From: an uncultured bacterium
Lineage (GTDB): Bacteria; Cyanobacteriota; Vampirovibrionia; Obscuribacterales; Obscuribacteraceae
Reading direction: 5' to 3'
DNA: 64,000 nt
NCBI GenBank assembly: GCA_903835185.1
Contig: CAILLX010000163.1
Coordinates: 52,087-116,086 of the forward strand
Shown: one piece after another, positions 7,172 through 43,079 of the stretch
How the letters are laid out: each line of letters begins with the position of its first letter
Numbering within the stretch: the first letter of the stretch is position 1
Notes under the pieces: generated by a model
Seen by the model: the letters and a program-made list of their open reading frames with translations, nothing else
What the model was told of the DNA's origin: nothing
Database searches by the model: none
Position numbers and translations under genes: made by a program

Positions 7172-8419
7172 ATGATGGCAAGGGTAAACACTTCAGGATC
7201 CTTTATGCGAACCGTATCATCAGTCTTTGCAGCGTTGTTGTTGCTGTCAGCTGTCCCATGCTGTGCAGCTATTCAGACAGACGGGAATGCTCTGGTTCCA
7301 GGGTGTAACCAGTTCGGCGTGAAGTTGTTACAGCTGATCGACAAGTCCTCCGCCGGCAAGAATATCTTAATCTCCAGCTATAGCATCTCTGAAGCAATGA
7401 ATATGACTGCATCTGGTGCCTCTGGCGCCAGCACTCGCGAAATTTATGACGTCATTGACGGGAGCAAACTTTCGGCTGAAGCGATTAGTTCTGCAGCAAA
7501 GCAGCTCAGAGATTCATTGCGTGAGTCAACGGACGCTGATCCTAAGGTTAAGATTACAATCGCCAATTCTCTCTGGGTAAGTCAGCAGGTTGTGCTGAAG
7601 AAGAGCTTTATCGACGAATGTAAATCAATGTATGACGCAATGGTTCGCAATGTCGATTTTGGCACAGCTGCTGCAGTGGACGCTATTAACAACTGGGTTA
7701 AGCAAGCAACAATTGGCAAGATTAGCAAGTTGGTCAGTCGCAGCAATGTGGATAGCTCCACTGTTGCTGTACTCGTCAATGCAATCTATTTTAAGGGGCT
7801 CTGGTCAAAACCGTTCAAGAGTCAGCTCACAACTGATCAGGAGTTCCACAGGACGAACAATGACACCAAAATGGTCAAAATGATGAATGACACCAGGAAG
7901 TTTTTGTACGCTTCCAGTGGAGATGCTGAGATGATTGCTCTTCCTTACGGGCAGGGGCGTATGCGTATGCTTGTAGTCCTGCCTGCCAAAAACCTGACTG
8001 CCAGTGCCTTCTTGTCCAGCCTGAACACTGATAAGCTCATGAATATGAGACGCTCTCTCAATTCTCGTCAGGTCAATCTCCTTCTGCCCAAGTTTAAATT
8101 GGAGTTTGGTGTTTACTCGCTGCCTCCTGCTTTGAAGATGATGGGCATTAAGGGAATCTTTCGGGGCGGGGAGTTCCAGAAAATGAGTTCAGCTGGAGCC
8201 ACGTTCCAAGTTACAGACGTTCTTCATAAGGCAATCATGGAAGTTGATGAAGAAGGGACGGTGGCTGCAGCTGCAACAGCTGTTTTAATTTCCAGACACG
8301 CAGTGCAGTTTGAACAACCGCTCGAAATGCGTGTCGATCATCCATTCCTAGTATTCATTGAAGACACCAAATCTGGGATGTTGCTATTCTCGGGGCTTGT
8401 TAGAGATCCTCAATTTTGA
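7172..8419 (+). CDS. Secreted serpin-family protease inhibitor
   Basis: Signal-peptide-like N-terminus; hinge EVDEEGTVAAAATAV; serpin signature DHPFLVFIEDTKSGMLLFSGLVRDP. Confidence 0.92.
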   Translation: MMARVNTSGSFMRTVSSVFAALLLLSAVPCCAAIQTDGNALVPGCNQFGVKLLQLIDKSSAGKNILISSYSISEAMNMTASGASGASTREIYDVIDGSKLSAEAISSAAKQLRDSLRESTDADPKVKITIANSLWVSQQVVLKKSFIDECKSMYDAMVRNVDFGTAAAVDAINNWVKQATIGKISKLVSRSNVDSSTVAVLVNAIYFKGLWSKPFKSQLTTDQEFHRTNNDTKMVKMMNDTRKFLYASSGDAEMIALPYGQGRMRMLVVLPAKNLTASAFLSSLNTDKLMNMRRSLNSRQVNLLLPKFKLEFGVYSLPPALKMMGIKGIFRGGEFQKMSSAGATFQVTDVLHKAIMEVDEEGTVAAAATAVLISRHAVQFEQPLEMRVDHPFLVFIEDTKSGMLLFSGLVRDPQF

Positions 8420-9226: not shown

Positions 9227-11212
9227 TCACTCCGTTGTAGACGAGTTGTGAGTTTTTTGTGTGTCCAGCCTGGCGTCGTTGTCCAGCAAGCCGCGTCCTG
9301 ACCAGTGCCCTGCCAGCAGTGGTGTCTGTTTGTTAGCAAAGTCGCTCAGAACCTCCTGAGATACTTTATTCCGCAGTTGTGTAAATATGTTGTGAAAGTC
9401 CTGATATTGCGGGTTCTGCTCTAATGTCTCAATTAACTGCCGAGTAAAGACTGCATTTTGATACCGTTTCGATTCCCACGAACGTTCGTTGCAATCACTT
9501 GATGAGACGAGGAGCTGGTAGGCTGAGCTGACAAGGAGATCCGGATCTGCATTGCTGGCTGTGATAGCACCAGGGGCACCGAGACCGCCGGCATAACAGG
9601 TGTCGAGTATAACAAAGGCGTGTCTTTTCTTGAGCTTGCTGCGCACCATCCGTACTATGCTCTGCATCGGCATTGATGTTGTGAAAAGATGATCCAGGCT
9701 GGTGTCATAAGTGACAACAGAGTTTGAGGCGCCCAGCTCTTTGTATGCAGGAGTTCCATGTGAAGAGATAAAGACAAAGACTAAATCGCCCGGATGTGTG
9801 ACTGCAGGCAGCCAGCTGCCAGCCAGGCAGTCAGTAATTGCTGCTCTGGTAGCATTGCTGTTCAGGAGAGTCTTTATATGATCCGGCTTAAAGCCAGCTT
9901 TAGCGATGAGAAACTGTTCCAGATCCTGGGCATCTTTGGCCGGGTAGTGCAGGTAATGAATCTGCGGGTCAGCAAACTGTGAGACTCCCACAACCATCGC
10001 CCAGCGGTCGTGTACTGTCTCGGCTACCGGGGTTGAGCTTTCCGTAAAGCCAAAAATATGGTCAAGATGTTTCTTGAGCGTATGCAAATGGCTGGCTTCA
10101 TCAGCAAAACTGAGAGCGTATTGACGATCAGCAGAAGCAGTAGCTTTCTGTCCCAGGCGCTCACGGCAATAAGAACGCCAGAGCGAGGCTTGAGCTGCTT
10201 CCAGGCGGTTGCCGCGCTGAATTGGAGAACGCTCCAGACCGACCAGAGATCTTGTCAGATGTCGATCTGCCTGGTCATACTGCCCGGCTAGTGCTGCCAC
10301 TACACCCAGTGATTCGTCGGCAAGCGGATCGAGCTCTTTTGTTGCAGGGGAATTCAGCTCTGTTTTAGCAAGTTCTATTTGGTGGCGGGCAGGCTGCTGT
10401 TGATTGCTCAGTGCATAAGCAAATGCTAGTGCTCTGTGCAGATGTCCGCGAGTTTCTGCAGTTGGTGCTTGTGCTGCTGCTCTTTCAAGCCAGGCAATTG
10501 CCTGCTCCTCTTTCTTTTGTGCGATATACAGATCCCCAAGATAATAAGTGGCATAGGAGTTGTCTGGTTCGTTTTCCAGGCACTGCTTCAGCTCATTTTC
10601 AGCTTTCTGGTAGTCGCCTGACCAGAAAGAGGCACACCCTGAATAGAAATAGAGATCGCCCAACTGAGTTTTCTGGTCAGGATTAGCCTCTGCTATGGAC
10701 AGAGCCAGCCTGGCGCAATGGGCTGAGGACACCGGCTGTCCGAAGCAAAGATAAAAGATAGCAGAACTTTTGTATGAGTTTAATTTGGCACTTTTAAGAG
10801 GTGTCCGGGCTGCCTGCAAAGAGGCAGCTCCTGGCAACTCCAGCGCATCCACAATCATCTGCCACTCAAGCAAGTTTGCGTCTGACTGTTCATACAGATC
10901 ATTAAGCTCATCGTCATTCTTGCGGAAAGTCTCGACATCATAACTGTCTGCTGCTTTGAGATGAGACAAGATATGTTCTTGAACTGAGCGTGCCAGAAGG
11001 CTGGATCTTTGAGCGCAACTAAGAATGCGAGCAGATGCCTCGCCTGAGGCAATTTTGAGCTTCGGCTCGGGTGTGATTAAAGGTGGCTGTGCACGCAGGA
11101 GCCCTTTACTGTTCTCCTGTGCGTAAGCAGCAGGAGACAGGAGCAGAAAAGAAACAGCAAGACAGACCAGAGCAGTAAAACTCTTGACAAAAGCTCTACC
11201 AGCTAGTGACAT
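9227..11212 (-). CDS. Exported TPR protein with C-terminal caspase-like (peptidase C14) domain
   Basis: Signal peptide; TPR-like YATYYLGDLYIAQKKEEQAIAWLERA; WAMVVGVSQF...FVFISSHG...FVILDTCYAGG (His/Cys dyad). Confidence 0.88.
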   Translation of the reverse strand: MSLAGRAFVKSFTALVCLAVSFLLLSPAAYAQENSKGLLRAQPPLITPEPKLKIASGEASARILSCAQRSSLLARSVQEHILSHLKAADSYDVETFRKNDDELNDLYEQSDANLLEWQMIVDALELPGAASLQAARTPLKSAKLNSYKSSAIFYLCFGQPVSSAHCARLALSIAEANPDQKTQLGDLYFYSGCASFWSGDYQKAENELKQCLENEPDNSYATYYLGDLYIAQKKEEQAIAWLERAAAQAPTAETRGHLHRALAFAYALSNQQQPARHQIELAKTELNSPATKELDPLADESLGVVAALAGQYDQADRHLTRSLVGLERSPIQRGNRLEAAQASLWRSYCRERLGQKATASADRQYALSFADEASHLHTLKKHLDHIFGFTESSTPVAETVHDRWAMVVGVSQFADPQIHYLHYPAKDAQDLEQFLIAKAGFKPDHIKTLLNSNATRAAITDCLAGSWLPAVTHPGDLVFVFISSHGTPAYKELGASNSVVTYDTSLDHLFTTSMPMQSIVRMVRSKLKKRHAFVILDTCYAGGLGAPGAITASNADPDLLVSSAYQLLVSSSDCNERSWESKRYQNAVFTRQLIETLEQNPQYQDFHNIFTQLRNKVSQEVLSDFANKQTPLLAGHWSGRGLLDNDARLDTQKTHNSSTTE

Positions 11213-13645: not shown

Positions 13646-16201
13646 TTACCAGCTCTCTCCTACTAATACCCAGGCCGCCCAGTTAATTGGCCTGGCAAAC
13701 CTGTCATATGGCTCGTTCTTTACTGTCAATTGTGCCTGGCGGAGAGCCTCTGCTGAGGAGAGCTTCTTTACCCATAAGTTGGTATAAAATTCCTGCATTA
13801 ATTTCATAGTAGCTTCGTCCGGTACCTTCCACAAAGACATGAGGATGCTGCGTGCGCCAGCTGCCATTATGGATGCGCGCAAACCAAGTACTCCCTGTCC
13901 GGTAGCTGACTCACCCAATCCTGTTTCACAAGCAGATAAAGTCATCAATTGCACACCAGCTAAATTAGCTCCCACCATCTCCTCTGCTGTCAGATAACGC
14001 CCTGACCCGCTACTTGCGGTGGTGCCACCAGAGTGTTTCGCCAGTACAATACCTGACTCGACCAGCGGGTTGCGCAAGGCCCTGTGCAAAACTGTCTTTG
14101 AACCTGTCTTGCGACTGGCTGCTCTGGACAACCTGGCTTCGTCAAAGAAGAATCCGTGAGTAGCTAGATGTACCCAGGCATTATGTGGTAAAGCCTTGAG
14201 AACTTCGGCTTTGCTTGCTTGCGAGCCGGTCAGGAATGTGACTTTCATTCCTTGCTTTTCAGCAAGCTTCCTGAGCTCTTCTGCCTCCTTGAGAGTCCCG
14301 GGGAGCGATGGTATGTCATAGCCGACAATCTGCTTATCAGCTTCTGTACTGCCAAAATCAATCCCGCCGCCAAGGAGGAGGTCCAGTTGAGCAGCAGTCT
14401 TTGGGCGAGCTAGTAAACGCAGACCGGCTAGCTCTCTGGCTGAGTCTAGCTGAGCAACCATGCTGCTTACAGGTGAGGCGGCAGCAAACAGGTGCCACGG
14501 TAGGCGTGACAGCTGTCCGTCCGGACTCAACCATATTTTACTGATACCACCAGGGAATAGACTCACCACAGGCTTCCACAGCAGTTTGGCTAATTGCTCC
14601 CATTCAGTGCTGGCTTCGTTTTTGAACAACACCTGCTTGCGCCATTTATAAAGCGCCTTGTCGTCATCTGCAACTGAGCCTAAATCGACAAATGCTAATG
14701 GTCCTTTCCTGTTTGACAGTACTGCTCCATATTCTGATAGCTGCTCTGGTTGAGCGTCTGTTGGTAGATAGCAGTAAATGTCCACCAGTAACTCATCTGC
14801 ACTGAGAAGGTGACAAAAATCAGACAGGCTCAAGGTGCTGAGGATGTCGGTAAGGCTGCCTGGTTTCAGTGAACGTGCCAGCTCTCTTTCCAGCGCTTCT
14901 TTGCTGGCTGTGAGCTCGTTGTTTGTCTTCTCCCAGTCGCTGTAAGGGACGCTGCCTGCTTCGTGGTACCAGGCTGCCAGGCGCGAGCGCAAAGATTTGA
15001 GCTGTTCTACCTGCCGGTGGTACTCTGTTTGTTCTCCTAAGTTCAAGACAGACTTTTGCCAGCGTAGCGATTCGATAAGCAATCCTTTCCAGCGGAAAAT
15101 AAAGTTGTATGCATCTGAGAGCGACTGTCCGCTGCGGCAGGTCGACAACAGCAAGGAGATCTCCTCCGGGACTTTGGTGGCTAGAAATGCTCTCTGCTCA
15201 GCAAAGGATAAGCTGGGCAAGACATTCTCAATATGGTGGTTGATTATACCCGCTGAGCGGAGAAGATTGCTTTGGGCCTCGACTGTGCGACCTTGCTTCC
15301 AGTCCAACCTACCAAGATTATTGAGGGCAGATGCTACGTCTGGATGGTAAGGACCGAGGCTGTGTTCATCAATTTGCAATGCTCGATTAAGAAGCTGCCT
15401 GGCGCGGGTTGTGTCACCGCCTGCGGTGAGCACCATAGCTAAATTATTGAGGCTTTCGGCAATATCAGGATGATCTTTAGGTAGCGCGCTCTCGCGTATT
15501 TTGAGCGCATGCTCAAACAGTGAAGTCGCTGAGCTCAGGTTGCCCACCGCCTCATAGAGGGAGCCGAGATTGTTCATGCTAGTGGCAACATTGGGATGTT
15601 CTGGTCCGAGCGCTTTGGCTGTAATGGCAAGGGCACGCTCGTAAAGCGGCAGCGCTCCCTGGGTCTGCCCGGTAGATTCGAGCAGCACTGCCAGATTGTT
15701 CAATGTTTCTCCCACTTGAGGGTCGTCCGGACCGAGAGCTTTTTCCTGGATGCGCAGAGCTCTTTCATAAAGCGGTCTGGCAGCGGCACAATCGCCTTGA
15801 AAAGACACAAGGGCGGCCAGGTTATTCAAACTGGTGGCAACTTCACAATCATCCGCTCCAAACGCATTTTCGTTAATGGCTAGAGCTCTTTCAAAAAGAG
15901 GGCGTGCTCCTGAATAGTCGCCAGAGGCTTGCAGGAGCCAGGCTAAATTATTGAGAGCTTTTGCTACAATTTGTCCCTGGCTGCCGTGAGTTTGCTCTGT
16001 GAGTTTAAGCGCCTTCCGTGCCAGAGGCAGAGCCTCGTCATATTTCCCTGCTTCATAAAGGCCGGCTACTTGAGAGTTGATCTCTTCTGCGGGATCGGCA
16101 GCAAAACCGCCGGCAAACGGGCTCTGTCCGCTAGCAGCATCTGCGCCAGGCGCAACTGCCAGCAGAAGTAAGATAGCACAGACTCTTAGTATGAAGACCA
16201 T
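13646..16201 (-). CDS. Exported TPR-CHAT protein (caspase-HetF-associated peptidase domain)
   Basis: Kinesin-light-chain-type TPRs (EKALGPDDPQVGETLNNLAVLLESTGQ...); VHLATHGFFF and LMTLSACETGLGE His/Cys signature; C-terminal INWAAWVLVGE. Confidence 0.93.
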   Translation of the reverse strand: MVFILRVCAILLLLAVAPGADAASGQSPFAGGFAADPAEEINSQVAGLYEAGKYDEALPLARKALKLTEQTHGSQGQIVAKALNNLAWLLQASGDYSGARPLFERALAINENAFGADDCEVATSLNNLAALVSFQGDCAAARPLYERALRIQEKALGPDDPQVGETLNNLAVLLESTGQTQGALPLYERALAITAKALGPEHPNVATSMNNLGSLYEAVGNLSSATSLFEHALKIRESALPKDHPDIAESLNNLAMVLTAGGDTTRARQLLNRALQIDEHSLGPYHPDVASALNNLGRLDWKQGRTVEAQSNLLRSAGIINHHIENVLPSLSFAEQRAFLATKVPEEISLLLSTCRSGQSLSDAYNFIFRWKGLLIESLRWQKSVLNLGEQTEYHRQVEQLKSLRSRLAAWYHEAGSVPYSDWEKTNNELTASKEALERELARSLKPGSLTDILSTLSLSDFCHLLSADELLVDIYCYLPTDAQPEQLSEYGAVLSNRKGPLAFVDLGSVADDDKALYKWRKQVLFKNEASTEWEQLAKLLWKPVVSLFPGGISKIWLSPDGQLSRLPWHLFAAASPVSSMVAQLDSARELAGLRLLARPKTAAQLDLLLGGGIDFGSTEADKQIVGYDIPSLPGTLKEAEELRKLAEKQGMKVTFLTGSQASKAEVLKALPHNAWVHLATHGFFFDEARLSRAASRKTGSKTVLHRALRNPLVESGIVLAKHSGGTTASSGSGRYLTAEEMVGANLAGVQLMTLSACETGLGESATGQGVLGLRASIMAAGARSILMSLWKVPDEATMKLMQEFYTNLWVKKLSSAEALRQAQLTVKNEPYDRFARPINWAAWVLVGESW

Positions 16202-25983: not shown

Positions 25984-27444
25984 TCAGCGGGCTCTCCCAT
26001 AATAGTGAACAAGCGGCGCGTCGCTGCCAGTTGAGCTGCTCTGTCCAGCTGACTGTGTAGCTCCACTGTTGCTGTTGGCTGCATCTGGCTGAGGCTGACT
26101 CTGGGCGGCAGATGGGTATGCTTGTGATTGGCTGCCTGCTGTTGTGGACTCTTCGCCAGTGGTGCCTCCTTTGCCGTCGGGGAATTGCCAGTAGTCCGAG
26201 TAGTCGTCAGATCCGGAGGACGTTGAGCCAGTAATTGTGTTGCTCCTGGTTGGTGTAGGTGTGGAGGACTTTCTTGCTGTGGTTGGAGGAGCTGGCGCGG
26301 GCTGAGCAGTCGGCTGTCTGGATTGATCAGCTGTTTTAAAGCTGTCGGCTCCAGATTGTGTAAATTGTGAACCTGCTTGAGGCTGAACTGCACTTTTAGG
26401 CGCCTGTGGCATCATGAGTAGAGCTGCCAATACCAGGGCGACGAGCAAACAACCACCGACTGAAGCAAAAATGATGTTACGCCTCTTCTTCAGTCCCACA
26501 GGACAGTCGCGCGTCAAAAATTTGCCGTCTGCTCGCTTGTAGAGTGTTATCTTGCTTAGATTCTCCCTCTTGCGGATCAACTCTTCAGCCTGCTGGAGCT
26601 CCAATCCGGACAGGTCATAGACGTGCAGCTGGCACGTTCCACAATAACGAAATCTTTCGCCAGGGGAAGTGTTTTCCCAGATCGAGCAGCATGGCGATGC
26701 CTTCTTGTATTTTGTAATCGGCTCGAAAGGTTTGACAGGTTCGTAAACCCTCTCCTTCAGCTGTTCGGCAACCTTAACTTCCATCTCTGCAGCAGCTTTA
26801 GCCACTGTATCCCAAAGAACTGCGTGATCAAGCATAGTCTTGGCTTCTTTGGGCTTGCCTTTTCTCTTGAGAGCTGCAGGTGGGGGCGGTGGCATCTCCG
26901 GAGCTGCAGGCTTCTGAGGGCTGTCATCTATCTTTGCCTGTTCTGCTGGTGGTGGGGACGGCTCGTGGGCGCGTATATCCTGCCATGTTTGTGTGCCTGA
27001 CAATGCATTTTCAGTGCTGCCTGGCGTGTCTGTATTATTGCCAATCGGATAGTCCAGTAGTGTCTTAGCTGTATTACCGCGCAGAGGCGGAGCTCCAGAG
27101 GCTGGTCCGCTGCCTGACCGGCTGTCTTGTTGCCTGGAGAGAGTATTAGATGACTGGCTGGAGGCATATGTGGAGGTGCCTAAATTATTATTGACAGGTT
27201 GTTCGAGCAGTGTCTTAGCTATAGTGCGGGCTTTCTGAACCTGCTCGCTGGCAACTTTGGATAAAATGGCTGCCACAGGTATTGCCGACCATTCACGCGA
27301 GGACAAGCGGTGACTCTTAACAACGGCAGAGTTGGGCTTCTGCGCTAGACAGCCGTCTGTCGAGGCGCTTGACGACTTGGCTAGTCGCTCGGAGTTGCCT
27401 CTGGCTAGTTGTTGTAAATGGCGATCGCCTGACTCTTCTGTCAT
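25984..27444 (-). CDS. Membrane protein with AKT(L/M)L(D/E) tags, Cys-ribbon (CPVG) domain, TM helix and Pro/Ser/Gln-rich tail
   Basis: Three AKTLLE/AKTLLD/AKTMLD motifs; CCSIWENTSPGERFRYCGTCQLHVYDLSGLELQQAEELI...DGKFLTRDCPVG; hydrophobic segment IIFASVGGCLLVALVLAALLM. Confidence 0.75.
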   Translation of the reverse strand: MTEESGDRHLQQLARGNSERLAKSSSASTDGCLAQKPNSAVVKSHRLSSREWSAIPVAAILSKVASEQVQKARTIAKTLLEQPVNNNLGTSTYASSQSSNTLSRQQDSRSGSGPASGAPPLRGNTAKTLLDYPIGNNTDTPGSTENALSGTQTWQDIRAHEPSPPPAEQAKIDDSPQKPAAPEMPPPPPAALKRKGKPKEAKTMLDHAVLWDTVAKAAAEMEVKVAEQLKERVYEPVKPFEPITKYKKASPCCSIWENTSPGERFRYCGTCQLHVYDLSGLELQQAEELIRKRENLSKITLYKRADGKFLTRDCPVGLKKRRNIIFASVGGCLLVALVLAALLMMPQAPKSAVQPQAGSQFTQSGADSFKTADQSRQPTAQPAPAPPTTARKSSTPTPTRSNTITGSTSSGSDDYSDYWQFPDGKGGTTGEESTTAGSQSQAYPSAAQSQPQPDAANSNSGATQSAGQSSSTGSDAPLVHYYGRAR

Positions 27445-28044
27445 AAACAGGATCACTCCATGAAAATTCTACTTTGGGGACCGATACATTATCTTTTCCA
27501 GACTTTGTGTCAATTAAGAGTACTGCCACACCAGCCAGCCATGTCATGAACATCCAGTAAGATTAAAGCGCACTGGTGGTAAAAAAGTCCCCTGGTTTCA
27601 GGGTAGCATCCAGCTGGTAAAATTTATAGGGCTGCAGACCGATCTGGTGAGTGATCATGATTAAAATTACTGCTTCCAGACAAGAAGCTGGCAGCTCGGC
27701 TCAAGTGGCAACAGGAGCAGGCTCCAGCTTGCATGTCCGTAAAGGAAGGTTCAAATACAGTGGAGCTAGATTGCTGTCTGTCGGACTGGAGTGCAAATGT
27801 CAGTTCAACAGAGCATTTGAGGAGTTGTCGGAGCGGACAGCCAGACCAACCTGTGACTTAAGTCATGCCTCCTGGTGATTACCGGTGGATGCGTGACCGA
27901 TGCTGCTGAAGTACAGTGAAAGCACTCCGGCGACCGAAGGCTCTGCCTCATCAGATGCCGGCCGCTAAGAAAGTGAGGGGTGTCACGCATGCTGGGCTCT
28001 GGGCGCGGCTGCTTTGATTCATGTATTTATGGGGTAGACAAACT

Positions 28045-30879
28045 ATGGCAGAAGTTGAAGAAAAAGAGAGCAAGAGCAGGCGCTTTTGCATTCCAGGATT
28101 TCTGGAGCCGCCACCGCCTCAGTCACCGCTGCAGCCAGCAGAGGCTCACTGTGAGGAAATGCCACCACATCAGGAGAAAAAAACTAATTTATGGCAACCC
28201 TGGGCTGGTTTAAGCGTGATGACTTTCGGTGTAGTGTTGCCGCTTCTGGCTGTTACAGTGGCCGGCAGCCTTAGCCTTGAGTCTATCTGGCATATGGTTT
28301 TAAGGCGCCCGCTTGAAACAGCCGTGGAATGCGGTCTTGCTGTTTGCATACCGTTTGCCAACTACAGTACCTGGTCTGCCATTCTTGCCAAAGAAAGCAG
28401 ACACCCGATCCGGCTGGGGCTAATAAACGGTGCTGCCATTACCGGGGCGATGGTTGCTTTTGTGCTGGCCACCATTCCGCTTTTCTTGAACTATCCTATG
28501 CTTGATGCTGACGGAGTGTTGCACCCGCTACCATTTTTGCTTGTCTCAATGGTCTCTTTAATGGCCGCAGCCAGCGCCATCTATCAGGCTGAGCAGCTAC
28601 GTATTTCCAAGTCGACAAGGGGGGCACGCTTACGTACTGTCCTATACTCTACCCTTGGCGTCTTGCTGTCACTGACAACTCTTGCCGGTACAGAAGCTTA
28701 CAACACCAGCATGCGTTTTGCTGAACATCTGGCTATGTCAGATTCTCCGCAAGAGCGTATAAGTGGGCTTAGCTATCTCAGGCAACATAATCCGGAAAGA
28801 GATCTCCGCATGGATTGTGCAGATCCTAGAAGTAGCGGACTGCCTGGGTTATTCTTGCGTTTTGATGACTATACTTTGCGTCAGCTGTATTTCTCAGCAA
28901 CTGGCAAGCCATATAAGCATACTGAAACTGCTGATGTAACCTTGCAGTCGGATTCATTCTTGAGCAGACATGTAGTCGGTGAGCCTGTTTCGGGACTGTC
29001 GCTAGTGAGATCGCAACTGTCCGGCTCGCTCAATTCAGGTTCGCTGTCATCAACTTTAGAGTGGACTTTTGTCTTTAAGAATAAAACTTTCACCGGACAG
29101 GAAGCGAGGGCTGAAATAGCTTTGCCACCACATGCGGTGATTTCCGGTCTGACGCTCTGGATGGATGGCGAGCCTCGCAAGGCAGCATTTGGTGCTACAG
29201 ATAAAGTCAAAGAAGCTTACAATTGGATTGTAGTCAATCACCGCGATCCTGCCCTTGTCACCGATCTTGGCAGAGGTCGAGTCCTTTTGCAGTGCTACCC
29301 GGTGCCAGCTCAGGGAGAGTTGAAGGCGCGAGTAAAAGTGACAGCTCCGCTGGCGCTTGACTCTCCGGCAGAAGCGTCACTAAATCTGCCCCGATTGATT
29401 GACTCCAATTTTGCTGTCTCACATGCTCATTCCGTGCAACTGAAATCTCATCAGGATCTTGAAATGGGTGTGAAAAAGGTCCGCCAGGTCAAGACCCCCA
29501 ATGGCGACCAGCTGATAACAGCTGATGTTGCAGACGGCGATCTGTCAGGATCAGGTCTGGCTGTAAGAGTTAAGCGATCTGCTGCATTTGGAGCAGTGGC
29601 TGCTGCAGATCCATGCAGTAAAGTAGCAAACTATATAGTCGAGACAATTAAGGAGGTCCCGGCTCGCATACCCCAGCATCTTGTCGTTGTGCTGGATGGA
29701 TCGCAAAGTGTGAAGGAGCACATCACAGACATTCGTTCAGCGCTTGCCAAGCTGCCCTCTGGAATCACCAGCTCTCTTATTGTCGCTGCCGATGAGAGTA
29801 ACGGACAGATTGAGTCGACACCGCTGACCGATGGGCTGAAGAATCTCAGTACATATCACTTCACCGGTGGAAATGACAACCTGGAGGCAGTGATTAAGGC
29901 TGCCGAAGAGGCTGGCGATAGTGATCGTGGTGCTGTTCTATGGATTCACGGACCACAGCCAGGATTTAATCGCGAGATTTATATCATGACTCCGTTTGCT
30001 GCTGTGCCTGCTTTCTATGATCTGGATGTAGAAAACGGCGGCACCAATCTCAACGAGTTTTTCAAGAATCATCGCGAGATAGGACCGTTTATTCCTGTGG
30101 CTCGCAGCTCCTCGGTAGGCAAAGATTTGCAAAGGCTCATTGCCCGCTGGCAGCCAGATGGCAAAGAATATGTCGTCGAGTATGGCAGATCCAACTCCAA
30201 GCCATCCCAGACTATTGCCGCAGGTGAACAAGCAAGCGAACTGGCTGGACTCTGGGCTGCCGATCGCTGTGCCAAGCTGCTTGGAGCCGGCAATATGCTT
30301 AAGGCTGCAGAGGTGGCAATACAGTACGGATTGGTGACACCAGTGAGCGGCGCCACAGTGCTCGAAAACAAGGTTGATTATCAGAAATTTGGACTTACAG
30401 AAGATGGGTCCAAAGTAAGCAATCAGTCTAAGCCAGCAGAAAGCAACAAGTTGGCTGAAGTGGCAGGACAAATGGCCGGAACGCAAGGAGCAACCAACGG
30501 AACTGATGCCATAACTACTTCCTACGCTGTTCAGGGTGCAACCAACGGAACTATCGGGCCGCAGGCTGGCGATGCAACAGTTGTTCAAGGGATCAATACT
30601 GCAGGCTCAGTCAGAGTTAATAACCTTGCCAGCCTTGAAGCACTGTTGAACTTCCTTTCTTACGGATTCGAGATACTTGGACTGGCACTGGGAGTGTTCC
30701 ATATCATTGCTGGTGTCATGAATAAACCGCTAGCGTACCTGCTTCCAGGCTGCCCATGCCGCATGAGCCCGAAAGCACGCATCCTTCTAGGAGTAATGCT
30801 TGCACTGGTAGCAATCATGGTGCCTGGTTGTATCAACTGGTTGGTTGCCTCTGCCTGCGACGCCAATCTGTTCTCGTAA
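28045..30879 (+). CDS. Multi-TM protein with VIT-like and vWA-like domains (resembles MSEP-CTERM/XrtN-system VIT proteins)
   Basis: Several N-terminal TM helices; LEWTFVFKNKTFTGQEARAEIALPPHAVISGLTLWMDGE...KEAYNWIVVNHRDPALV (VIT-like); LVVVLDGSQSVKEH (vWA-like); LVTPVSGATVLE. Confidence 0.72.
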   Translation: MAEVEEKESKSRRFCIPGFLEPPPPQSPLQPAEAHCEEMPPHQEKKTNLWQPWAGLSVMTFGVVLPLLAVTVAGSLSLESIWHMVLRRPLETAVECGLAVCIPFANYSTWSAILAKESRHPIRLGLINGAAITGAMVAFVLATIPLFLNYPMLDADGVLHPLPFLLVSMVSLMAAASAIYQAEQLRISKSTRGARLRTVLYSTLGVLLSLTTLAGTEAYNTSMRFAEHLAMSDSPQERISGLSYLRQHNPERDLRMDCADPRSSGLPGLFLRFDDYTLRQLYFSATGKPYKHTETADVTLQSDSFLSRHVVGEPVSGLSLVRSQLSGSLNSGSLSSTLEWTFVFKNKTFTGQEARAEIALPPHAVISGLTLWMDGEPRKAAFGATDKVKEAYNWIVVNHRDPALVTDLGRGRVLLQCYPVPAQGELKARVKVTAPLALDSPAEASLNLPRLIDSNFAVSHAHSVQLKSHQDLEMGVKKVRQVKTPNGDQLITADVADGDLSGSGLAVRVKRSAAFGAVAAADPCSKVANYIVETIKEVPARIPQHLVVVLDGSQSVKEHITDIRSALAKLPSGITSSLIVAADESNGQIESTPLTDGLKNLSTYHFTGGNDNLEAVIKAAEEAGDSDRGAVLWIHGPQPGFNREIYIMTPFAAVPAFYDLDVENGGTNLNEFFKNHREIGPFIPVARSSSVGKDLQRLIARWQPDGKEYVVEYGRSNSKPSQTIAAGEQASELAGLWAADRCAKLLGAGNMLKAAEVAIQYGLVTPVSGATVLENKVDYQKFGLTEDGSKVSNQSKPAESNKLAEVAGQMAGTQGATNGTDAITTSYAVQGATNGTIGPQAGDATVVQGINTAGSVRVNNLASLEALLNFLSYGFEILGLALGVFHIIAGVMNKPLAYLLPGCPCRMSPKARILLGVMLALVAIMVPGCINWLVASACDANLFS

Positions 30880-32671: not shown

Positions 32672-33076
32672 TCAATGTGAGACTGTTACGATCGGTTCAG
32701 TGGACCTTGCATGAAAGTGCGGGGTGCTGCTGATTCCTGGCATGGGTACAGGCAGGTGGACGTCCATGTCCAGGGTCACTGACACTGTGTCATTGGGAAC
32801 ATAATCGACCTTCGTGAGGCTTATCTGAGTGCAATATGGCGAAGCATAAAATGACTGGAGAGCTGTCTGAGCAGCCTGCGTTGCGCCGGCTTGGTCAGGC
32901 TGATTAGCAGCTGCTCGAGCACAGTCCTTAGCAAACTTATCTACCATCTGATTAGTAAGAGACATTACATACATGTCAAACAGGAAAAGTGCAATAGGGA
33001 TTAATAAGATAAGACCAGCTCCTAGTTCGACCAGACCCTGCCCGTACATGCTTCTGCGTCGACTCTTTATTAGCAC
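32672..33076 (-). CDS. TadE-like pilus assembly protein
   Basis: YGQGLVELGAGLILLIPIALFLFDMYVM N-terminal TM of TadE type. Confidence 0.7.
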   Translation of the reverse strand: MLIKSRRRSMYGQGLVELGAGLILLIPIALFLFDMYVMSLTNQMVDKFAKDCARAAANQPDQAGATQAAQTALQSFYASPYCTQISLTKVDYVPNDTVSVTLDMDVHLPVPMPGISSTPHFHARSTEPIVTVSH

Positions 33077-33097: not shown

Positions 33098-33580
33098 TTA
33101 AGGAGCGTTTTCCGGATTTTCGACAACGTGCTCGCTTGTATAGCTAAAAGGCACAGGAGCGTTGATACCAGGCACCCCAGGCAGAAAGGGAATGCCGATA
33201 TTCACAAGTGGGCTGACCACAATACTGGTAGTTAAGACAACTATCTTGTCTCCAGCTACGCCGGTCTTGTAAATAACTTGTGTGTCTACTGGTTGAGCCA
33301 GTTTGCAAAACCTACCCAATCCTCCTTGAATCCATTGATCGACAATTGCCTGCTTGACAAAGCCGCTGGTGGAATTGACCTGTGTGTACGGCTCTAGCGC
33401 TGCCTCCCGCACCTGTGACCCGTTTAAGACAGAGCCGGCATTATAAAACAGAGCAACTGCCAGAAGATCAATTAGTGGGAAGGCAATCATTATCAGTAGG
33501 ATGAAAAGTACAGGTCCAAATTCGGCTATAGAGCTGCCGTTTTGACTTGTGCGACTGTCTTTTGTGCGAGCTGCTATCAT
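33098..33580 (-). CDS. TadE/TadG-like protein
   Basis: QNGSSIAEFGPVLFILLIMIAFPLIDLLAVALFYNAG. Confidence 0.65.
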   Translation of the reverse strand: MIAARTKDSRTSQNGSSIAEFGPVLFILLIMIAFPLIDLLAVALFYNAGSVLNGSQVREAALEPYTQVNSTSGFVKQAIVDQWIQGGLGRFCKLAQPVDTQVIYKTGVAGDKIVVLTTSIVVSPLVNIGIPFLPGVPGINAPVPFSYTSEHVVENPENAP

Positions 33581-33793: not shown

Positions 33794-36388
33794 ATGCAAA
33801 AGGGAAGGCAAAATCATCTAAGATCCTTACAGGCAAAGCTAATGATTGTTTTTGCACTCAAAGGTTTAAACCCTCGACTTCTTTGTGGACCTGGACTGCT
33901 AAACGGCAAACCTGTCCGTGGTCAGACTATACCGCTTGTTGCCACAATTGCCTTTGCCATAGTGATACTGGGTGTTGGGATCTTCTTCCTGATCCAGCTA
34001 TTAGGCGGCTCCAGAGAGTTCCAAAATGCTGTCGACTCAGGCACGCTGCAGGTTTCCAAGAAGGCCCTTTTTGCGCCCAGGGTGCAGCTGAGTCATTCCA
34101 ATCCAACGACAGGTGTAGATGAGATAACTGAGTTTGGTGGAGTGTCTCTTAAGGTTAAGCAGCTTGAGCTGTCCAACTTTCCTACTATTGTTCCACCGGA
34201 TGACGGCAACTACTATGTCGATCTTTTAGGAATAAACGGCATATGGGGACAGGCTCTGCTTGAGGCTCTCAATGTGCAGAGGATGCAGATGGCTGGGGTT
34301 GCTACAACTCAAGCAATTCGAAATGCTCAGCGTATTCAACGGACAGCTGCTGATATCAGCAGCCGGCTTTCTCAGAACCTGCTCAGCGACAGCGACCCCA
34401 CCCAGAGCGATCCGGGAGTTTCCAATCCGCTTGATACAACATTTCGGCGGCTAGCAAATGATAATACAGTGAGAATGCTGGAGCAGACAGGACTGGTCAG
34501 GAAGGATGATTATTCCAATTCATTCACCTATCGTGGGAAAGATAGCAATATTGAGTTAAATGTTGATCAGCAAACAGTTGGATTGCTTAATCTCAATGGT
34601 GTAACTTCAGGTCAACCTTATCTTGGCACCAGTAACTCGAGCGGGGTTTATCTTAAAGGATACGTTCCTGCCACTGTTCCGCTAGGTGCTGTATCTCTCG
34701 ACTTCATGTTTGTTCCGCTTGAAGTTCAGAAGAAACCTCATTTGATCTCTCAAATCCAGTTCAATCAGGATGCCAATGCTACAACAATCGGCTCTCCCCT
34801 GACTGCTTCCGTGCCTCCTAGTATCCCTCCCGATGCTTTTCACTTCAGCGCTCTGGTTAATGTCGAGAAAGCCTCAAAGGACATGGAGCATAGAGCATTT
34901 GCTGCTAGCAAGGATATGACAGGGGGGCTCAAGATAAGCAGTCCGCGTGGGTTTATTCGGATTGAAAATCCAGGTGGCGCTAACGGCACTCCTTTCCATG
35001 TTCTCGAACTGGCCAACCAGGAGACAGTCAACGGATACAACGCCATGCAGGGACTATTAGGCGGAGAAGCCGGACCAGTCCTAGGCAATTCGCTCTTCAA
35101 CCCGGTGCAGAATAACTACGGCAATAATTCTTACGCACAGGACGGAGCAGCGCTCATGGCAGTTGCGTGTTCCACTATGTCACTGCTCGGATGGAACAAT
35201 GTTGCTTTTATTACATGTATTCCATGTTTGTTTGCTATCCCACCCTGTTTCAATGTATGTTATCCAGCTATGTGCTTCGCACAAATAGTTTGTGCATTTA
35301 CACAAGGTTGCGGTGATGTGCCTGATTATGATGCCGGCAGCTTCTGGAACATAGCCAATCCTGGCTTTCATCCGGTGTATGCCTACATGCCGGGGGAGTC
35401 GATGCCAGGAACCGGAAGAGGACATAACAGCATTGACACCAGAGGTATATGCAATGTGACACCCGAAAATGCAGGGCTGCGGGAGCATAAGATCTTCTGG
35501 GACTGGCTGGAGGGGAAGTCTTATATCGATTTTAATGCTCTGGTGATCAGTTTCATGACAGCTCCATGTAGTCTTTGCTGGTGGAGTCAGAACCTTCATG
35601 GTGGGGGAATTTCGCAGTACCCAAAGTTCAACAACTTCGATGCTGATTCAGCCGAGTCCGGTATGAAGGACAGGATGCCGGCGGGGGGACATACGTTCAG
35701 TTTGCTGAACCGTCGTACGCTAACAAATTTTACGACAACTGGAACACTAAGTTCGCTGCTGTACGGGCGACTCTCAACAGATCCAACGCCGCCTGGCGCC
35801 GTCACTACCGTCTATAATCTCATGTACCAGCGAATCCGAGAGATTGCCCCCGAGTCACCAGCAGCAGAAATACAATCCGTGCTCTCAAGTACCAAACCTA
35901 TACCTATGGGTGCCAATGCATTTATCTATCTCGATGACAGTCAGCATCTTCAGCTGTCTGTCCCTGCCAACGGGGACGTACTACCTCCCTGGCTTACACC
36001 AGTACAGAATGCACCTCCCGATGGAGATGATTTCCATAAGATCAATCCAACGCAATTTGAGTACCGTGATCCAGATCAAAAAAACCGTTGCTACAGGTTA
36101 GTCAATCCCAATCAGGATTTCATCACGGGTACAGAAATATATGCACCGACGTCAGATAACTATCCAACAAGGGTTTGCAGCTACGATATATACCATTTCT
36201 CGCCGTCTTCTGGTTTCAACGGACTTATGGGAGTGCTGAAGCTCGGCTCGAAAGTGGAAAGAAAATGCATGGTGCATGGAGTGATCGACACTTCGAAAAC
36301 TCCGTGGACACAGCCGGATGATTGTTTTTGCTATCCACATCCTGATGGCTCAAAGGATCAGACCATTTGCAAGCCTAGCGTTTTCTAG
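33794..36388 (+). CDS. TadG-like membrane-anchored protein with Cys-rich segment
   Basis: GQTIPLVATIAFAIVILGVGIFFLIQLLGGSREFQNAVDSGTLQVSK; CIPCLFAIPPCFNVCYPAMCFAQIVCAFTQGC. Confidence 0.6.
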   Translation: MQKGRQNHLRSLQAKLMIVFALKGLNPRLLCGPGLLNGKPVRGQTIPLVATIAFAIVILGVGIFFLIQLLGGSREFQNAVDSGTLQVSKKALFAPRVQLSHSNPTTGVDEITEFGGVSLKVKQLELSNFPTIVPPDDGNYYVDLLGINGIWGQALLEALNVQRMQMAGVATTQAIRNAQRIQRTAADISSRLSQNLLSDSDPTQSDPGVSNPLDTTFRRLANDNTVRMLEQTGLVRKDDYSNSFTYRGKDSNIELNVDQQTVGLLNLNGVTSGQPYLGTSNSSGVYLKGYVPATVPLGAVSLDFMFVPLEVQKKPHLISQIQFNQDANATTIGSPLTASVPPSIPPDAFHFSALVNVEKASKDMEHRAFAASKDMTGGLKISSPRGFIRIENPGGANGTPFHVLELANQETVNGYNAMQGLLGGEAGPVLGNSLFNPVQNNYGNNSYAQDGAALMAVACSTMSLLGWNNVAFITCIPCLFAIPPCFNVCYPAMCFAQIVCAFTQGCGDVPDYDAGSFWNIANPGFHPVYAYMPGESMPGTGRGHNSIDTRGICNVTPENAGLREHKIFWDWLEGKSYIDFNALVISFMTAPCSLCWWSQNLHGGGISQYPKFNNFDADSAESGMKDRMPAGGHTFSLLNRRTLTNFTTTGTLSSLLYGRLSTDPTPPGAVTTVYNLMYQRIREIAPESPAAEIQSVLSSTKPIPMGANAFIYLDDSQHLQLSVPANGDVLPPWLTPVQNAPPDGDDFHKINPTQFEYRDPDQKNRCYRLVNPNQDFITGTEIYAPTSDNYPTRVCSYDIYHFSPSSGFNGLMGVLKLGSKVERKCMVHGVIDTSKTPWTQPDDCFCYPHPDGSKDQTICKPSVF

Positions 36389-38738: not shown

Positions 38739-40241
38739 CTAATCATCCCACGGCTCCTTGGGATGTGGAGGTGAGAGTGCAGCTGTGCCGCCTGTAGGTG
38801 CTGTATAGTGCATGTCCACAAACGGGTGTGACATTACACCATTCTCGTCAGCAACTGGCGGCTCAGACAGGTCAATTCTTGCTGCATCATTATGCAAAGA
38901 ATTGGAGACTGGAGGGATGTATGTGGCAGGCGAATGAGGCGTTGCATTGACGGCTGGCTTGTCAGGTTGGTGAGTGACAGTTGGGACCAGTATGACCGGA
39001 TGTGGTGGCATATAAGGTGAAGATGGCTGCTGCGCCGGTCTATTGGTAAAGCTTAAGAGCAGGAGCCCAGCTGCAATGAGGATAGCTGCTCCGGCAGCCA
39101 CTCCACGAACGATGGTCCGAGTCTTTTGGGCTGCCCCCACAGGGCAATCTTTCACCTGAAACTTGCCATCCTTTCTCCTATAGAAGCAGAAGTCTTCTCG
39201 TCCTTCGTGCTTCGCGACCAGCACTCTTGCCTCTTGCTCGTCCAGCTCGGACAGGTCGTAAACCTGCTGGTGGCATCGTGTGCAGTATTTCACGCGCGAT
39301 CTACCGCTCATCGAAGCCCACTGGACCGGACAATCGGAGGACAGACGAAAGTGTTCCAGGGGGCGGATTGGAGGCGAGGGTGCTGGTGGCTGTTCGTGTA
39401 TGACTGCAGCGGCAACGAGAATGCGTTCTGCCTCCTTTCTGCTGGCTTGCTGTTCTATCTTTTGCAGTTGGTCGAGATCGAAAATGGTCTTCTTTGCATC
39501 TCTTGGCAGCTTGGCCCCTTTGAGAACCTGATTGATAGGTGCTGCCTGCAGAGGAGCTGCCGGATTGGCATTACTCCCTGGACTGGTGATTTCTACAGGC
39601 GATTGTCTCACCTGAGAAGGTACCTCGCCTGAGCATAAAAGCTCAACCTGACCTGGCTTACTGTCCGAATGATAAGAATTGTCTGTTAGTGGTCTGTCCA
39701 TGTCCGGTTCATGTGGATCTGTCACCCGGTCGGAGGCGCTGGGAGCAGCAGCTACAACGTCAAGATCTTGAAATGTTTTTTTCAGAAATCTCGGGTTTTT
39801 GAATGGATCGGGCGTCTGGTCCAACTGTTGAGACTGGGTGGGTATCGGGACCTTTGCTTCAGCAGCCGAATGGACAGGAGAGGCAACAGATTGTTCGGGG
39901 GCTGATCGTTGCTCTGGTACGGTCAGTGAAGAAAGCGGTTGATGCTCTGGTGCTATTTCGGGGAAGGTTCGTTTAAGCAGCTTTGAAACTTTGACTCTGC
40001 CTGGGCCGGCACTGCCGCTACTGGAGGCTGACGGAAGCTGGCTGCCGGGCACAGCTGTATCAGCGGACGCGACAATGTTGTCTGCCGAGCGATAGCTCTT
40101 ATCGTCTGGACCTACATTCGTGCCATTGTCCAATTTGTCCTCGCCGGTGCTAAGAAAAATCTTTGCATTGCAACAAAAAGCAGACCAGCTCAATGTTTCT
40201 TTCACTATGATACACAGAACAAAGCATTTTCTGAGCAGCAT
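38739..40241 (-). CDS. Paralogue of the 25984-27444 protein: K/R-T-x-x-D/E tags, Cys-ribbon (CPVG) domain, TM helix, Pro-rich tail (start codon uncertain)
   Basis: LKRTFPE, LKKTFQD, AKKTIFD; CPVQWASMSGRSRVKYCTRCHQQVYDLSELDEQEARVLV...DGKFQVKDCPVG; AAGAAILIAAGLLLLSF. Confidence 0.75.
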   Translation of the reverse strand: MLLRKCFVLCIIVKETLSWSAFCCNAKIFLSTGEDKLDNGTNVGPDDKSYRSADNIVASADTAVPGSQLPSASSSGSAGPGRVKVSKLLKRTFPEIAPEHQPLSSLTVPEQRSAPEQSVASPVHSAAEAKVPIPTQSQQLDQTPDPFKNPRFLKKTFQDLDVVAAAPSASDRVTDPHEPDMDRPLTDNSYHSDSKPGQVELLCSGEVPSQVRQSPVEITSPGSNANPAAPLQAAPINQVLKGAKLPRDAKKTIFDLDQLQKIEQQASRKEAERILVAAAVIHEQPPAPSPPIRPLEHFRLSSDCPVQWASMSGRSRVKYCTRCHQQVYDLSELDEQEARVLVAKHEGREDFCFYRRKDGKFQVKDCPVGAAQKTRTIVRGVAAGAAILIAAGLLLLSFTNRPAQQPSSPYMPPHPVILVPTVTHQPDKPAVNATPHSPATYIPPVSNSLHNDAARIDLSEPPVADENGVMSHPFVDMHYTAPTGGTAALSPPHPKEPWDD

Positions 40242-40407: not shown

Positions 40408-41694
40408 ATGTCCAAAGTCTTGATTGCTGCTGGCGACGCGGAACTGTCTTCTCTGATGGAGAACTGGCTGTGTCAGGAGAAGCATATTGTTGCTGTGGTG
40501 GACAACGGACTGGACTGTTGGGAGCATCTCAATACTTTTCGATACGATCTTGTGCTTATTGACTGGGACTTGCCCCAGTTGCAGGGCATTGATATCCTGA
40601 AACGATTCCGCGGCACAGGTGGTACCACGCCGATCATCCTTCTGTCTGCACATACGACTGTTGCTGACAAGGAATTAGGATTTGATGCCGGTGCTAACGA
40701 TCTTTTGACAAAACCGTTTTACTTCAATGAGTTCTCGCGACGAGTTAACAATATTTTGTGTGGACGGGGAAGTGAGGCTGGTTCAAGCTGCTGGTCGGGA
40801 GCAGGCAATGAACATGTTTTGCAAAGAGGAGATCTAATCGGAACTGCTCTTGCCTCCAAGTATGAGTTTCTTGAAGTATTGGGTGAAGGTGGGCTAGGGC
40901 TGGTATTTAAGGTGAGGCACCCGCACCTGGGAAGGCTGCTGGCAGTTAAGATGATTGTTTCTCCTGATACGAGTGTACAGGGTGTGGCTCGATTTGAACG
41001 CGAAGCTAGAGCTTTGTGCCGGCTGGATCATCCGAATATTGTCACCATCTATGATTTTGGTGTTACTGAGCGCAAGCAGTCATATATGGTTCTGGAGTTT
41101 ATTGATGGTCAAGATCTTGACACGATTTTGGAGCATGAAGACCATTTATCAGTTGAACAAACACTTGAGATATTGATTCAGGTCTCTGATGGGCTGGCTC
41201 ATGCTCATGAGATGGGCGTTTTGCATCGTGACATGAAACCAGGCAATATCATGCTCAGGCGAACTGGTGGCAGGGTCTCTGTGGTCAAAGTGCTTGACTT
41301 TGGACTGGCCAAGTTGACAGTGCCAGAGTCACAAAATCAGATTGCACTCACCTGGACAGGGCAAGTGTGTGGTTCGCCACCTTATATGAGCCCCGAACAG
41401 GTGCGTGGCAAACAGGTAGACGAAAGGTCAGACGTTTATTCTGTGGGTTGTATGCTCTATGAGATGTTGACTGGCTACACTCCGTTCGTGTCGAATAAAG
41501 TCATAGATATAATGCTTATGCACCTGGAGTATCAGCACGAACCGCTGCGCTGCGTTCGCCCCGACCTGGATTTGCCGGAGGATTTGGAGTCTATCGTAGC
41601 AAGAGCGCTCGAAAAGGATCCGCAACTGCGTTATCAGTCGATTGTGGCATTCAGAGATGATCTTGAGCACGTTCAGCATAAGTATAAGAGCTAG
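40408..41694 (+). CDS. Receiver-domain / Ser-Thr protein kinase fusion (degenerate receiver)
   Basis: Receiver with VLIDWDLP and LTKPF but AAGD in place of VDDD; kinase VLGEGGLGLVFKV, LHRDMKPGNIML, DFGLAK, GSPPYMSPEQ. Confidence 0.92.
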   Translation: MSKVLIAAGDAELSSLMENWLCQEKHIVAVVDNGLDCWEHLNTFRYDLVLIDWDLPQLQGIDILKRFRGTGGTTPIILLSAHTTVADKELGFDAGANDLLTKPFYFNEFSRRVNNILCGRGSEAGSSCWSGAGNEHVLQRGDLIGTALASKYEFLEVLGEGGLGLVFKVRHPHLGRLLAVKMIVSPDTSVQGVARFEREARALCRLDHPNIVTIYDFGVTERKQSYMVLEFIDGQDLDTILEHEDHLSVEQTLEILIQVSDGLAHAHEMGVLHRDMKPGNIMLRRTGGRVSVVKVLDFGLAKLTVPESQNQIALTWTGQVCGSPPYMSPEQVRGKQVDERSDVYSVGCMLYEMLTGYTPFVSNKVIDIMLMHLEYQHEPLRCVRPDLDLPEDLESIVARALEKDPQLRYQSIVAFRDDLEHVQHKYKS

Positions 41695-41750: not shown

Positions 41751-43079
41751 CTATGCTTGCTGACCGCCTTGAGCCATTTTGAGCTTTAACTTGATGGCTT
41801 CCAGTGCGTCGATAAACTCGCGCATTGACGAATATCTTTCTTCGCGAGACCGTGCCAGAGCTTTGAAAAGAACAGGCTCAAGCTCTTCTGGGAAATTAAA
41901 ATCTGGGCGCAGTTCTTTCAGTGGAACAACATCTTCCTCAAGATGTTTGAGCATCACTTCCATACTGTTTTCGCCCAGGTGAGGCGGGCAGCCGGTCAGC
42001 GCTTCGTAGGCGACGCAGCCGAGTGCATAAATGTCTGAGCGCTCATCAAGGCTTTTCCCTCTCACCTGTTCTGGTGCCATATAGGGTGGGCTGCCAAAAA
42101 CTTGGCCCAGTTGTGTTAACTGCAGCGACTGTACAGATGGAATCGATTGTCTAATTTCAGGCTCTTTGAGTTTAGCAAAACCGAAATCGAGAATCTTTAC
42201 AACTGGCGGACGACCTGTATATTGTTTGAGCATTATATTGCTAGGCTTGATGTCCCTATGCAGAATGCCCATATCGTGAGCGTGAGCAATGCCGTCCCCT
42301 GCCTGAGTGCAGATATCAAGCGCCGATACTATTTCAAGCGCTCCTTGCTCGGACATAAGATCGGCAAGTGCTTTACCATCAATAAATTCCATCACCATAT
42401 AGGGTTGATTGTGTTCAGTGACGCCAAAATCATGAATAGTGATGATGTTATGGTGGTCCAGTCGGCTAACTGCTTTAGCCTCACGCTTGAAGCGCTCTAT
42501 GCTCTCTTCCTTCAACTGGTGTGAATGCAGCATCTTAATGGCAACCAGCTTTTCCATAAGCGGATGCATGGCTTTAAATACCATTCCCATCCCGCCTTCG
42601 CCTAAAACTTCTAGAAACTCATAGCGAGACGCCAGAAGTGTGCCTGTCAGATTAGCTCTTTTCAAGACGTCTTCGTTGCCGCTGCCGAGAGCCTTATAAA
42701 CAGTCGCCTGCGACTCCATCCGCCTTAATAAGGCACGAATGCGGGCAGAGAGCTCTTTCATGTGAAACGGTTTGGTCAGATAGTCATCAGCGCCGGAATC
42801 AAGACCAAGCTCTTTGTCGTTTACATCTGTGTGACCAGTTAGCATGAGGACAGGTGCCTTGCCGCCAGAGGCTCGATAGCGCTTGAGGATGTCTATGCCG
42901 TTAATGTCGGGAAGGTCCCAGTCAAGGATTAAGAGGTCGTATTGATTGTCTGATCGGCTTTTCTGCCAGCCTTCAAAGCCTGTGTGTACTACCTCGAGAG
43001 AATGCTTCTCATAAGCAAGCCAGTCTTCAACCGCTGAGGACAATTGCAGATCATCGTCAACGTAGAGAATTTTGGCCAT
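41751..43079 (-). CDS. Receiver-domain / Ser-Thr protein kinase fusion (canonical receiver)
   Basis: KILYVDDDLQLSS, LLILDWDLP, YLTKPF; kinase LGEGGMGMVFKA, LHRDIKPSNIML, DFGFAK, GSPPYMAPEQ. Confidence 0.93.
   Translation of the reverse strand: MAKILYVDDDLQLSSAVEDWLAYEKHSLEVVHTGFEGWQKSRSDNQYDLLILDWDLPDINGIDILKRYRASGGKAPVLMLTGHTDVNDKELGLDSGADDYLTKPFHMKELSARIRALLRRMESQATVYKALGSGNEDVLKRANLTGTLLASRYEFLEVLGEGGMGMVFKAMHPLMEKLVAIKMLHSHQLKEESIERFKREAKAVSRLDHHNIITIHDFGVTEHNQPYMVMEFIDGKALADLMSEQGALEIVSALDICTQAGDGIAHAHDMGILHRDIKPSNIMLKQYTGRPPVVKILDFGFAKLKEPEIRQSIPSVQSLQLTQLGQVFGSPPYMAPEQVRGKSLDERSDIYALGCVAYEALTGCPPHLGENSMEVMLKHLEEDVVPLKELRPDFNFPEELEPVLFKALARSREERYSSMREFIDALEAIKLKLKMAQGGQQA

Follow-up and report, generated by a model that had tools for sequence, protein, structure and literature searches.

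The stretch of Obscuribacteraceae DNA analysed here (64,000 nt, hereafter the window) carries two convergent genes, one encoding a membrane protein with three short threonine-centred tags (P0001) and the other a stand-alone FHA protein (P0002). The features of both, together with those of neighbouring genes, are collected in Table 1. Tag threonines (Thr82, Thr132 and Thr207) are numbered from the GTG codon at 27456; an ATG located four codons further in is an equally plausible start.

Table 1. Coordinates of the features discussed in the text (window positions)
Feature	Position	Strand	Remarks
Stand-alone FHA protein P0002	25590..25898	plus	convergent with P0001; R34, S49, H52, N71 present
Tag-bearing membrane protein P0001	25984..27456	minus	disordered tag region, helix, four-Cys domain, one TM, low-complexity C-terminal tail
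Single transmembrane segment, residues 327-349	26410..26478	minus	hydropathy; basic residues on N side
Four-cysteine domain (C256, C272, C275, C318)	26503..26691	minus	invariant cysteines
Predicted helix 211-237, immediately after tag 3	26746..26826	minus	AlphaFold2
Tag 3, membrane-proximal AKTMLD (Thr207/Asp210)	26827..26844	minus	invariant in wider family
Tag 2, AKTLLD (Thr132)	27052..27069	minus	T132 column at least 90% conserved
Tag 1, AKTLLE (Thr82)	27202..27219	minus	T82 column at least 90% conserved among orthologues
TadE-like small membrane protein (cluster c3)	32672..33076	minus	8/14 homologues match TadE weakly
TadE-like small membrane protein (cluster c5)	33098..33580	minus	no Pfam match
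TadG-like large protein (cluster c2)	33794..36388	plus	6/14 homologues match Tad weakly
Second tagged paralogue of P0001	38739..40241	minus	beside two receiver-kinase fusions
Paralogue membrane-proximal tag KTIFD	39477..39491	minus
Paralogue tag KTFQD	39765..39779	minus
Paralogue tag RTFPE	39957..39971	minus
Receiver-domain + Ser/Thr kinase fusion, candidate writer	40408..41694	plus	kinase match G000:C163:92947-93723
Second receiver-domain + Ser/Thr kinase fusion, candidate writer	41751..43079	minus	kinase match G000:C163:93912-94709

P0001 possesses one strong transmembrane segment (residues 327-349), in agreement with the preliminary description of this protein as membrane-bound, and the segment is preceded by the sequence KKRR. 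By the positive-inside rule, this predicted topology should place the tags in the cytoplasm. Residues 1-180 are predicted to be disordered (AlphaFold, pLDDT <50). Profile searches with P0001 returned no Pfam or NCBIfam match, and 43 members of its family gave no consistent match to Pfam. The four-cysteine domain is probably metal-binding; a fold search with it against the PDB retrieved nothing at E ≤ 0.001. P0001 orthologues also have in common a D-E-x-G-x-F-W sequence near the C-terminus, and their Trp423 column is at least 90% conserved.

Divergent from the tag gene lie genes for two small TadE-like proteins and one TadG-like protein, an arrangement encountered at 14-15 of the 21 loci examined. 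Only part of their homologues match the TadE and Tad profiles (fractions in Table 1; best E 0.002-0.004), the first member of each falling below the cut-off. These neighbours suggest a role of the system in a surface structure or in secretion. Kinase genes are found within the 20-kb neighbourhood of most orthologous loci; the genome to which the window belongs (4.35 Mb assembled in 243 contigs) has 33 kinase matches, and four relatives have 88-118, densities of about one per 50-130 kb. The two fusions at 40408 and 41751 are, by their proximity only, candidate writers of the tags among these 33 matches. Elsewhere in the window, the gene directly upstream of the tag gene (28021-30879) encodes a large protein bearing a weak resemblance to the VIT / XrtN system, a serpin gene adjoins one for a TPR + caspase-like (Peptidase_C14) protein (7172-8419 and 9227-11212), and this pair is followed by a gene for a TPR-CHAT protein (13646-16201).

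Threonine tags in the P0001 family

The hexamers AKTLLE, AKTLLD and AKTMLD are located exactly where the preliminary description had placed them, and three tags were not reached in any of 20,000 shuffled versions of the P0001 N-terminus (mean 0.011). Orthologues from other genera of the same family (Ca. Melainabacteria, Obscuribacterales-like) possess up to seven copies of RKVAKT(M/L)L(E/D). In total, 113 tags were counted in 24 orthologue N-termini, against a shuffled mean of 0.61; the commonest 5-mers in these regions are AKTML, VAKTM, KVAKT and RKVAK, and the tag consensus reads R-(K/R)-(V/I)-A-(K/R)-T-(M/L)-L-(E/D). Within five genera, identity reaches 70-92% in the tag columns and 70-79% in the Cys domain, versus 32-48% in the other N-terminal columns, which bears out the expectation that, within the N-terminus, the tags form islands of conservation.

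Of 81 residues that follow (K/R)(V/I)(A/P)(K/R), 79 are Thr and one is Ser, a pattern that fits the requirement of a pThr-only reader. Asp or Glu occupies the +3 position in 67 of the 72 N-terminal tags of acidic-tag species, but Phe or Tyr takes its place in one clade (see below). Thus, of the Thr/acidic pair on which the preliminary description had relied, the threonine is kept in orthologues, whereas the acidic residue is not universal. Judging from the alignments, what stays constant in the tag is a threonine in its basic/hydrophobic frame, and not a set pairing of Thr with an acid. The membrane-proximal T-x-x-D (T11 and D14 of the alignment) is, like the four cysteines, invariant across 43 divergent family members, whose sole selection criterion was a sufficient length of sequence before the Cys domain; in a short-form subfamily of P0001 relatives the tag region is entirely absent.

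At the DNA level, the AKT(M/L)L(E/D) pattern has only one match in the same genome besides this locus, within the gene of a small unrelated protein. We also considered AKT(M/L)L(E/D) as a proteome-wide motif and rejected it, the matches outside the P0001 family in this genome being due to chance or unrelated. A reordered control pattern scatters comparably outside the family, and the evidence therefore resides in the clustering of tags inside one protein family, not in the raw genome count.

The paralogous family of P0001 is large, with 11 matches in its own genome and 25 in that of a relative (G020). A second tagged member, overlooked in the preliminary description, is encoded in the window beside the two kinase fusions, and its three tags are all of the T-x-x-acid type. 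The P0001 paralogues of this genome contain 12 such tags, where 0.7 would be expected. In a further genome, a 299-aa protein (L107, G013:C6) combines about five KT-x-(L/I/M)-(D/E) tags with a C-terminal TM-like segment and is devoid of the four-Cys domain; by its sequence, it would represent a stripped-down tag platform.

Such conservation could in principle arise if the tags were never phosphorylated and acted as basic and hydrophobic peptides for the groove of another partner, or as helix N-caps, the threonine being kept for its shape and the FHA gene being a mere neighbour. The motif is equally hydrophobic and charged, the AlphaFold helix begins right after the third tag, and both Thr and Asp are good helix N-cap residues. 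However, we regard this explanation as rather unlikely: the surroundings of the N-terminal tags are predicted to be disordered and free of helices, their threonine is not swapped for Ser, Asp or Asn, which are also helix cappers, and the pairing and co-occurrence with the FHA gene would be left unexplained.

The FHA protein and its association with the tags

The small, convergently encoded FHA-only neighbour noted in the preliminary description is real: P0002 is a 102-aa protein, hardly more than one FHA domain, scoring 74 bits against PF00498 (gathering cut-off 20.7). By NCBIfam score, its nearest named relative is FhaB/FipA (NF049868; 94.5, below the equivalog cut-off of 125), and the scores against GarA/OdhI (NF041660; 24.4, equivalog cut-off 200) and T6SS TagH/Fha (TIGR03354; 38, cut-off 120) are likewise below threshold. 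The P0002 orthologue group is sharply set off from other FHA proteins (E up to 1.6e-30, the next being 3e-18); of 50 family genomes, 27 possess a member. Seven residues of the phosphothreonine pocket (G33, R34, S49, H52, N71, G72 and T73) are invariant in 19 P0002 orthologues, and these residues predict that the group is competent for pThr. A literature search, with most subscription papers outside its coverage, retrieved no paper on FHA proteins in this bacterial group.

The P0002 orthologue is convergent with, and directly 3' of, the tag protein gene in 24 of 26 evaluable genomes. The two exceptions (G020 and G034) have the FHA gene without a tag gene beside it, while G070 was left out of the count, as its contig ends there. 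Globally, 36 genomes divide into 19 with FHA and tags, none with FHA alone, 3 with tags alone and 14 with neither, so that tags are found in 19/19 FHA-bearing genomes versus 3/17 of those without FHA (Fisher p 1.8e-7, with no phylogenetic correction). "Tags" in this count means a P0001 match reaching the region of tag 3, and very divergent cases could escape it. Together with the suggestive link at +3 described below, adjacency and co-occurrence uphold the connection between tags and FHA protein that the preliminary description had drawn.

The pairing could also be a historical linkage within a surface-structure locus, with products that make no direct contact. Conservation in the neighbourhood extends to TadE/TadG-like genes and kinases, and convergent genes are not co-transcribed. 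Nevertheless, without selection a convergent order does not normally survive over genus-level distances, both genes occur together, and the tags suit the chemistry of a pThr reader, all of which makes mere linkage very improbable.

A different possibility is that the tags, once phosphorylated, are recognised by other FHA proteins, for example kinase-linked ones, and that P0002 binds a kinase, a Tad-like component or something else at the locus. There are seven FHA matches in the genome of the window, three tag-bearing genomes (G015, G023 and G028) are without a P0002 orthologue, and one Asp tag is kept in the Phe-tag clade. Against these observations, it is the P0002 group that co-occurs with the tag gene and is paired with it, an adjacency kept even where the Tad-like genes are no longer next door (the window, L119, L125 and L126), whereas other FHA groups were not seen in tag loci; we therefore hold this possibility to be unlikely.

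Among 75 FHA loci from other groups, no repeated tags of the P0001 type were found beside the FHA gene. At one of the loci inspected, from the Armatimonadota (L168:4496-5842), a VWA-like protein beside an FHA gene possesses different repeats (DKTQIFG, DKTAMG, ERTVMG and EKTLMG), and the two are possibly a convergent tag-reader pair. One contig (L144, JAJPJO010000157.1) is titled 'Proteobacteria bacterium', probably by misclassification, as its FHA and tag genes are those of family genome G007.

In known FHA domains, selection at +3 has been placed in the binding loop: Asp is selected through Arg83 in Rad53 FHA1, and Phe/Tyr through hydrophobic residues at Ser-1 to Ser-3 in RNF8 (PMC4037201). 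The equivalent of Arg83 in P0002 (Ser-2) is Tyr47, replaced by Phe in some orthologues, and acid recognition at +3 would therefore need another contact. In three genera (g13, g5 and g10), the N-terminal tags mostly have Phe/Tyr at +3 (20/26). An FHA tree proved too weak for placing these switches and an rpoB tree was substituted, in which the three genera fall into one clade with the acidic-tag genus g11 nested within it, implying that the tag class changed about twice. In most family genomes searched, the canonical rpoB-like gene (~1650 bits) is accompanied by a second, divergent one (~1000 bits); the rpoB-like matches include G000:C182:16449-19595.

The FHA column best associated with the class of the +3 residue is position 51, Ser+2 in the loop that holds the pThr-binding Ser49. 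This residue is D/E in 7/7 Phe-tag cases and H/S/N/T in 15 of 16 acidic-tag ones, the counter-example (L121) combining acidic tags with Asp51. An acidic residue 51 would repel an acidic +3. As the covariation stems from about two independent switches, a test on independent pairs cannot reach significance and does not, and the link between tag +3 and FHA residue 51 is suggestive at the level of sequence. The membrane-proximal tag keeps its Asp in 7/7 Phe-tag proteins, a suggestion that this particular tag may have a different reader or a structural role.

A putative phospho-docking platform

Considering the evidence as a whole, we judge it likely that P0001 is a cytoplasm-facing phospho-docking platform whose tags are phosphorylated by a kinase and bound by the convergently encoded FHA protein. 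From phosphorylation and binding to the identity of the kinase, multivalency and output, we infer the following course. A Ser/Thr kinase would phosphorylate the threonine of each (R/K)(R/K)(V/I)A(K/R)-T-(M/L)-L-(E/D) tag in the disordered N-terminal arm, and the small cytoplasmic P0002 would dock on the phosphorylated tags via its phosphothreonine pocket, with a selectivity exerted at the +3 residue. With several tags, several FHA molecules could be held by one platform, allowing graded recruitment at the membrane. The output might be a Tad-like or other envelope structure, serving at the surface or in secretion.

Most of the 11 paralogue matches of this genome have the membrane-proximal TxxD in common, so that many platforms may be served by a single FHA protein. 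The broader proposal that a single FHA adaptor serves 11 to 25 paralogous platforms per genome through repeated pT-x-x-D/E tags, with tag and reader co-evolving at +3 (acid to Phe, accompanied by the change in the FHA loop), is more tentative, and we would not yet favour it over its negation. If true, it would amount to a lineage-specific, multivalent FHA-adaptor phospho-code and a natural series for the evolution of FHA specificity. Knowledge of FHA partners in bacteria has mostly come site by site; in the present case, sequences from dozens of genomes reveal a likely FHA ligand, in up to seven copies per protein and with a natural switch at the selectivity position. The docking platform proposed for P0001 would also give a large unannotated family of membrane proteins a function, and its multivalent phosphothreonine docking is open to test, in bacteria that have 33-118 Ser/Thr kinase matches per genome and have hardly been studied by experiment.

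Relation to known FHA systems

Repeated FHA ligands have a eukaryotic counterpart in the SDTD repeats of MDC1, which are read by the FHA/BRCT module of NBS1. As proposed for P0001, these are repeated phosphothreonine motifs in a disordered scaffold with an FHA-bearing partner, but MDC1 is nuclear, is written by CK2 (PMC8841529) and has no homology to P0001. The candidate tags also resemble the ligand of Rad53 FHA1 in placing Asp at +3 of the phosphothreonine, although the Asp-contacting Arg83 is replaced by Tyr/Phe in the P0002 group (PMC4037201). In mycobacteria, threonines of CwlM and MurJ phosphorylated by PknB are bound by FhaA, which controls envelope synthesis at the membrane (PMC6180346); the reading of pThr by an FHA protein at the membrane is the arrangement proposed here, whereas the sites differ from the P0001 tags and lie in unrelated proteins.

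The principle of FHA-phosphothreonine docking is thus known, and the tandem array of membrane tags appears undescribed. The closest parallel in layout is type VI secretion in Agrobacterium, where pThr14 of TssL is bound by Fha, thereby activating secretion (PMC3953482). Both systems would comprise an inner-membrane protein with a cytoplasmic N-terminal threonine, a Ser/Thr kinase, an FHA reader and a surface machine. TssL, however, has a single site and its Fha is longer (at least 309 residues; PMC3953482), whereas P0001 represents an unrelated, unannotated family in which the tags are repeated.
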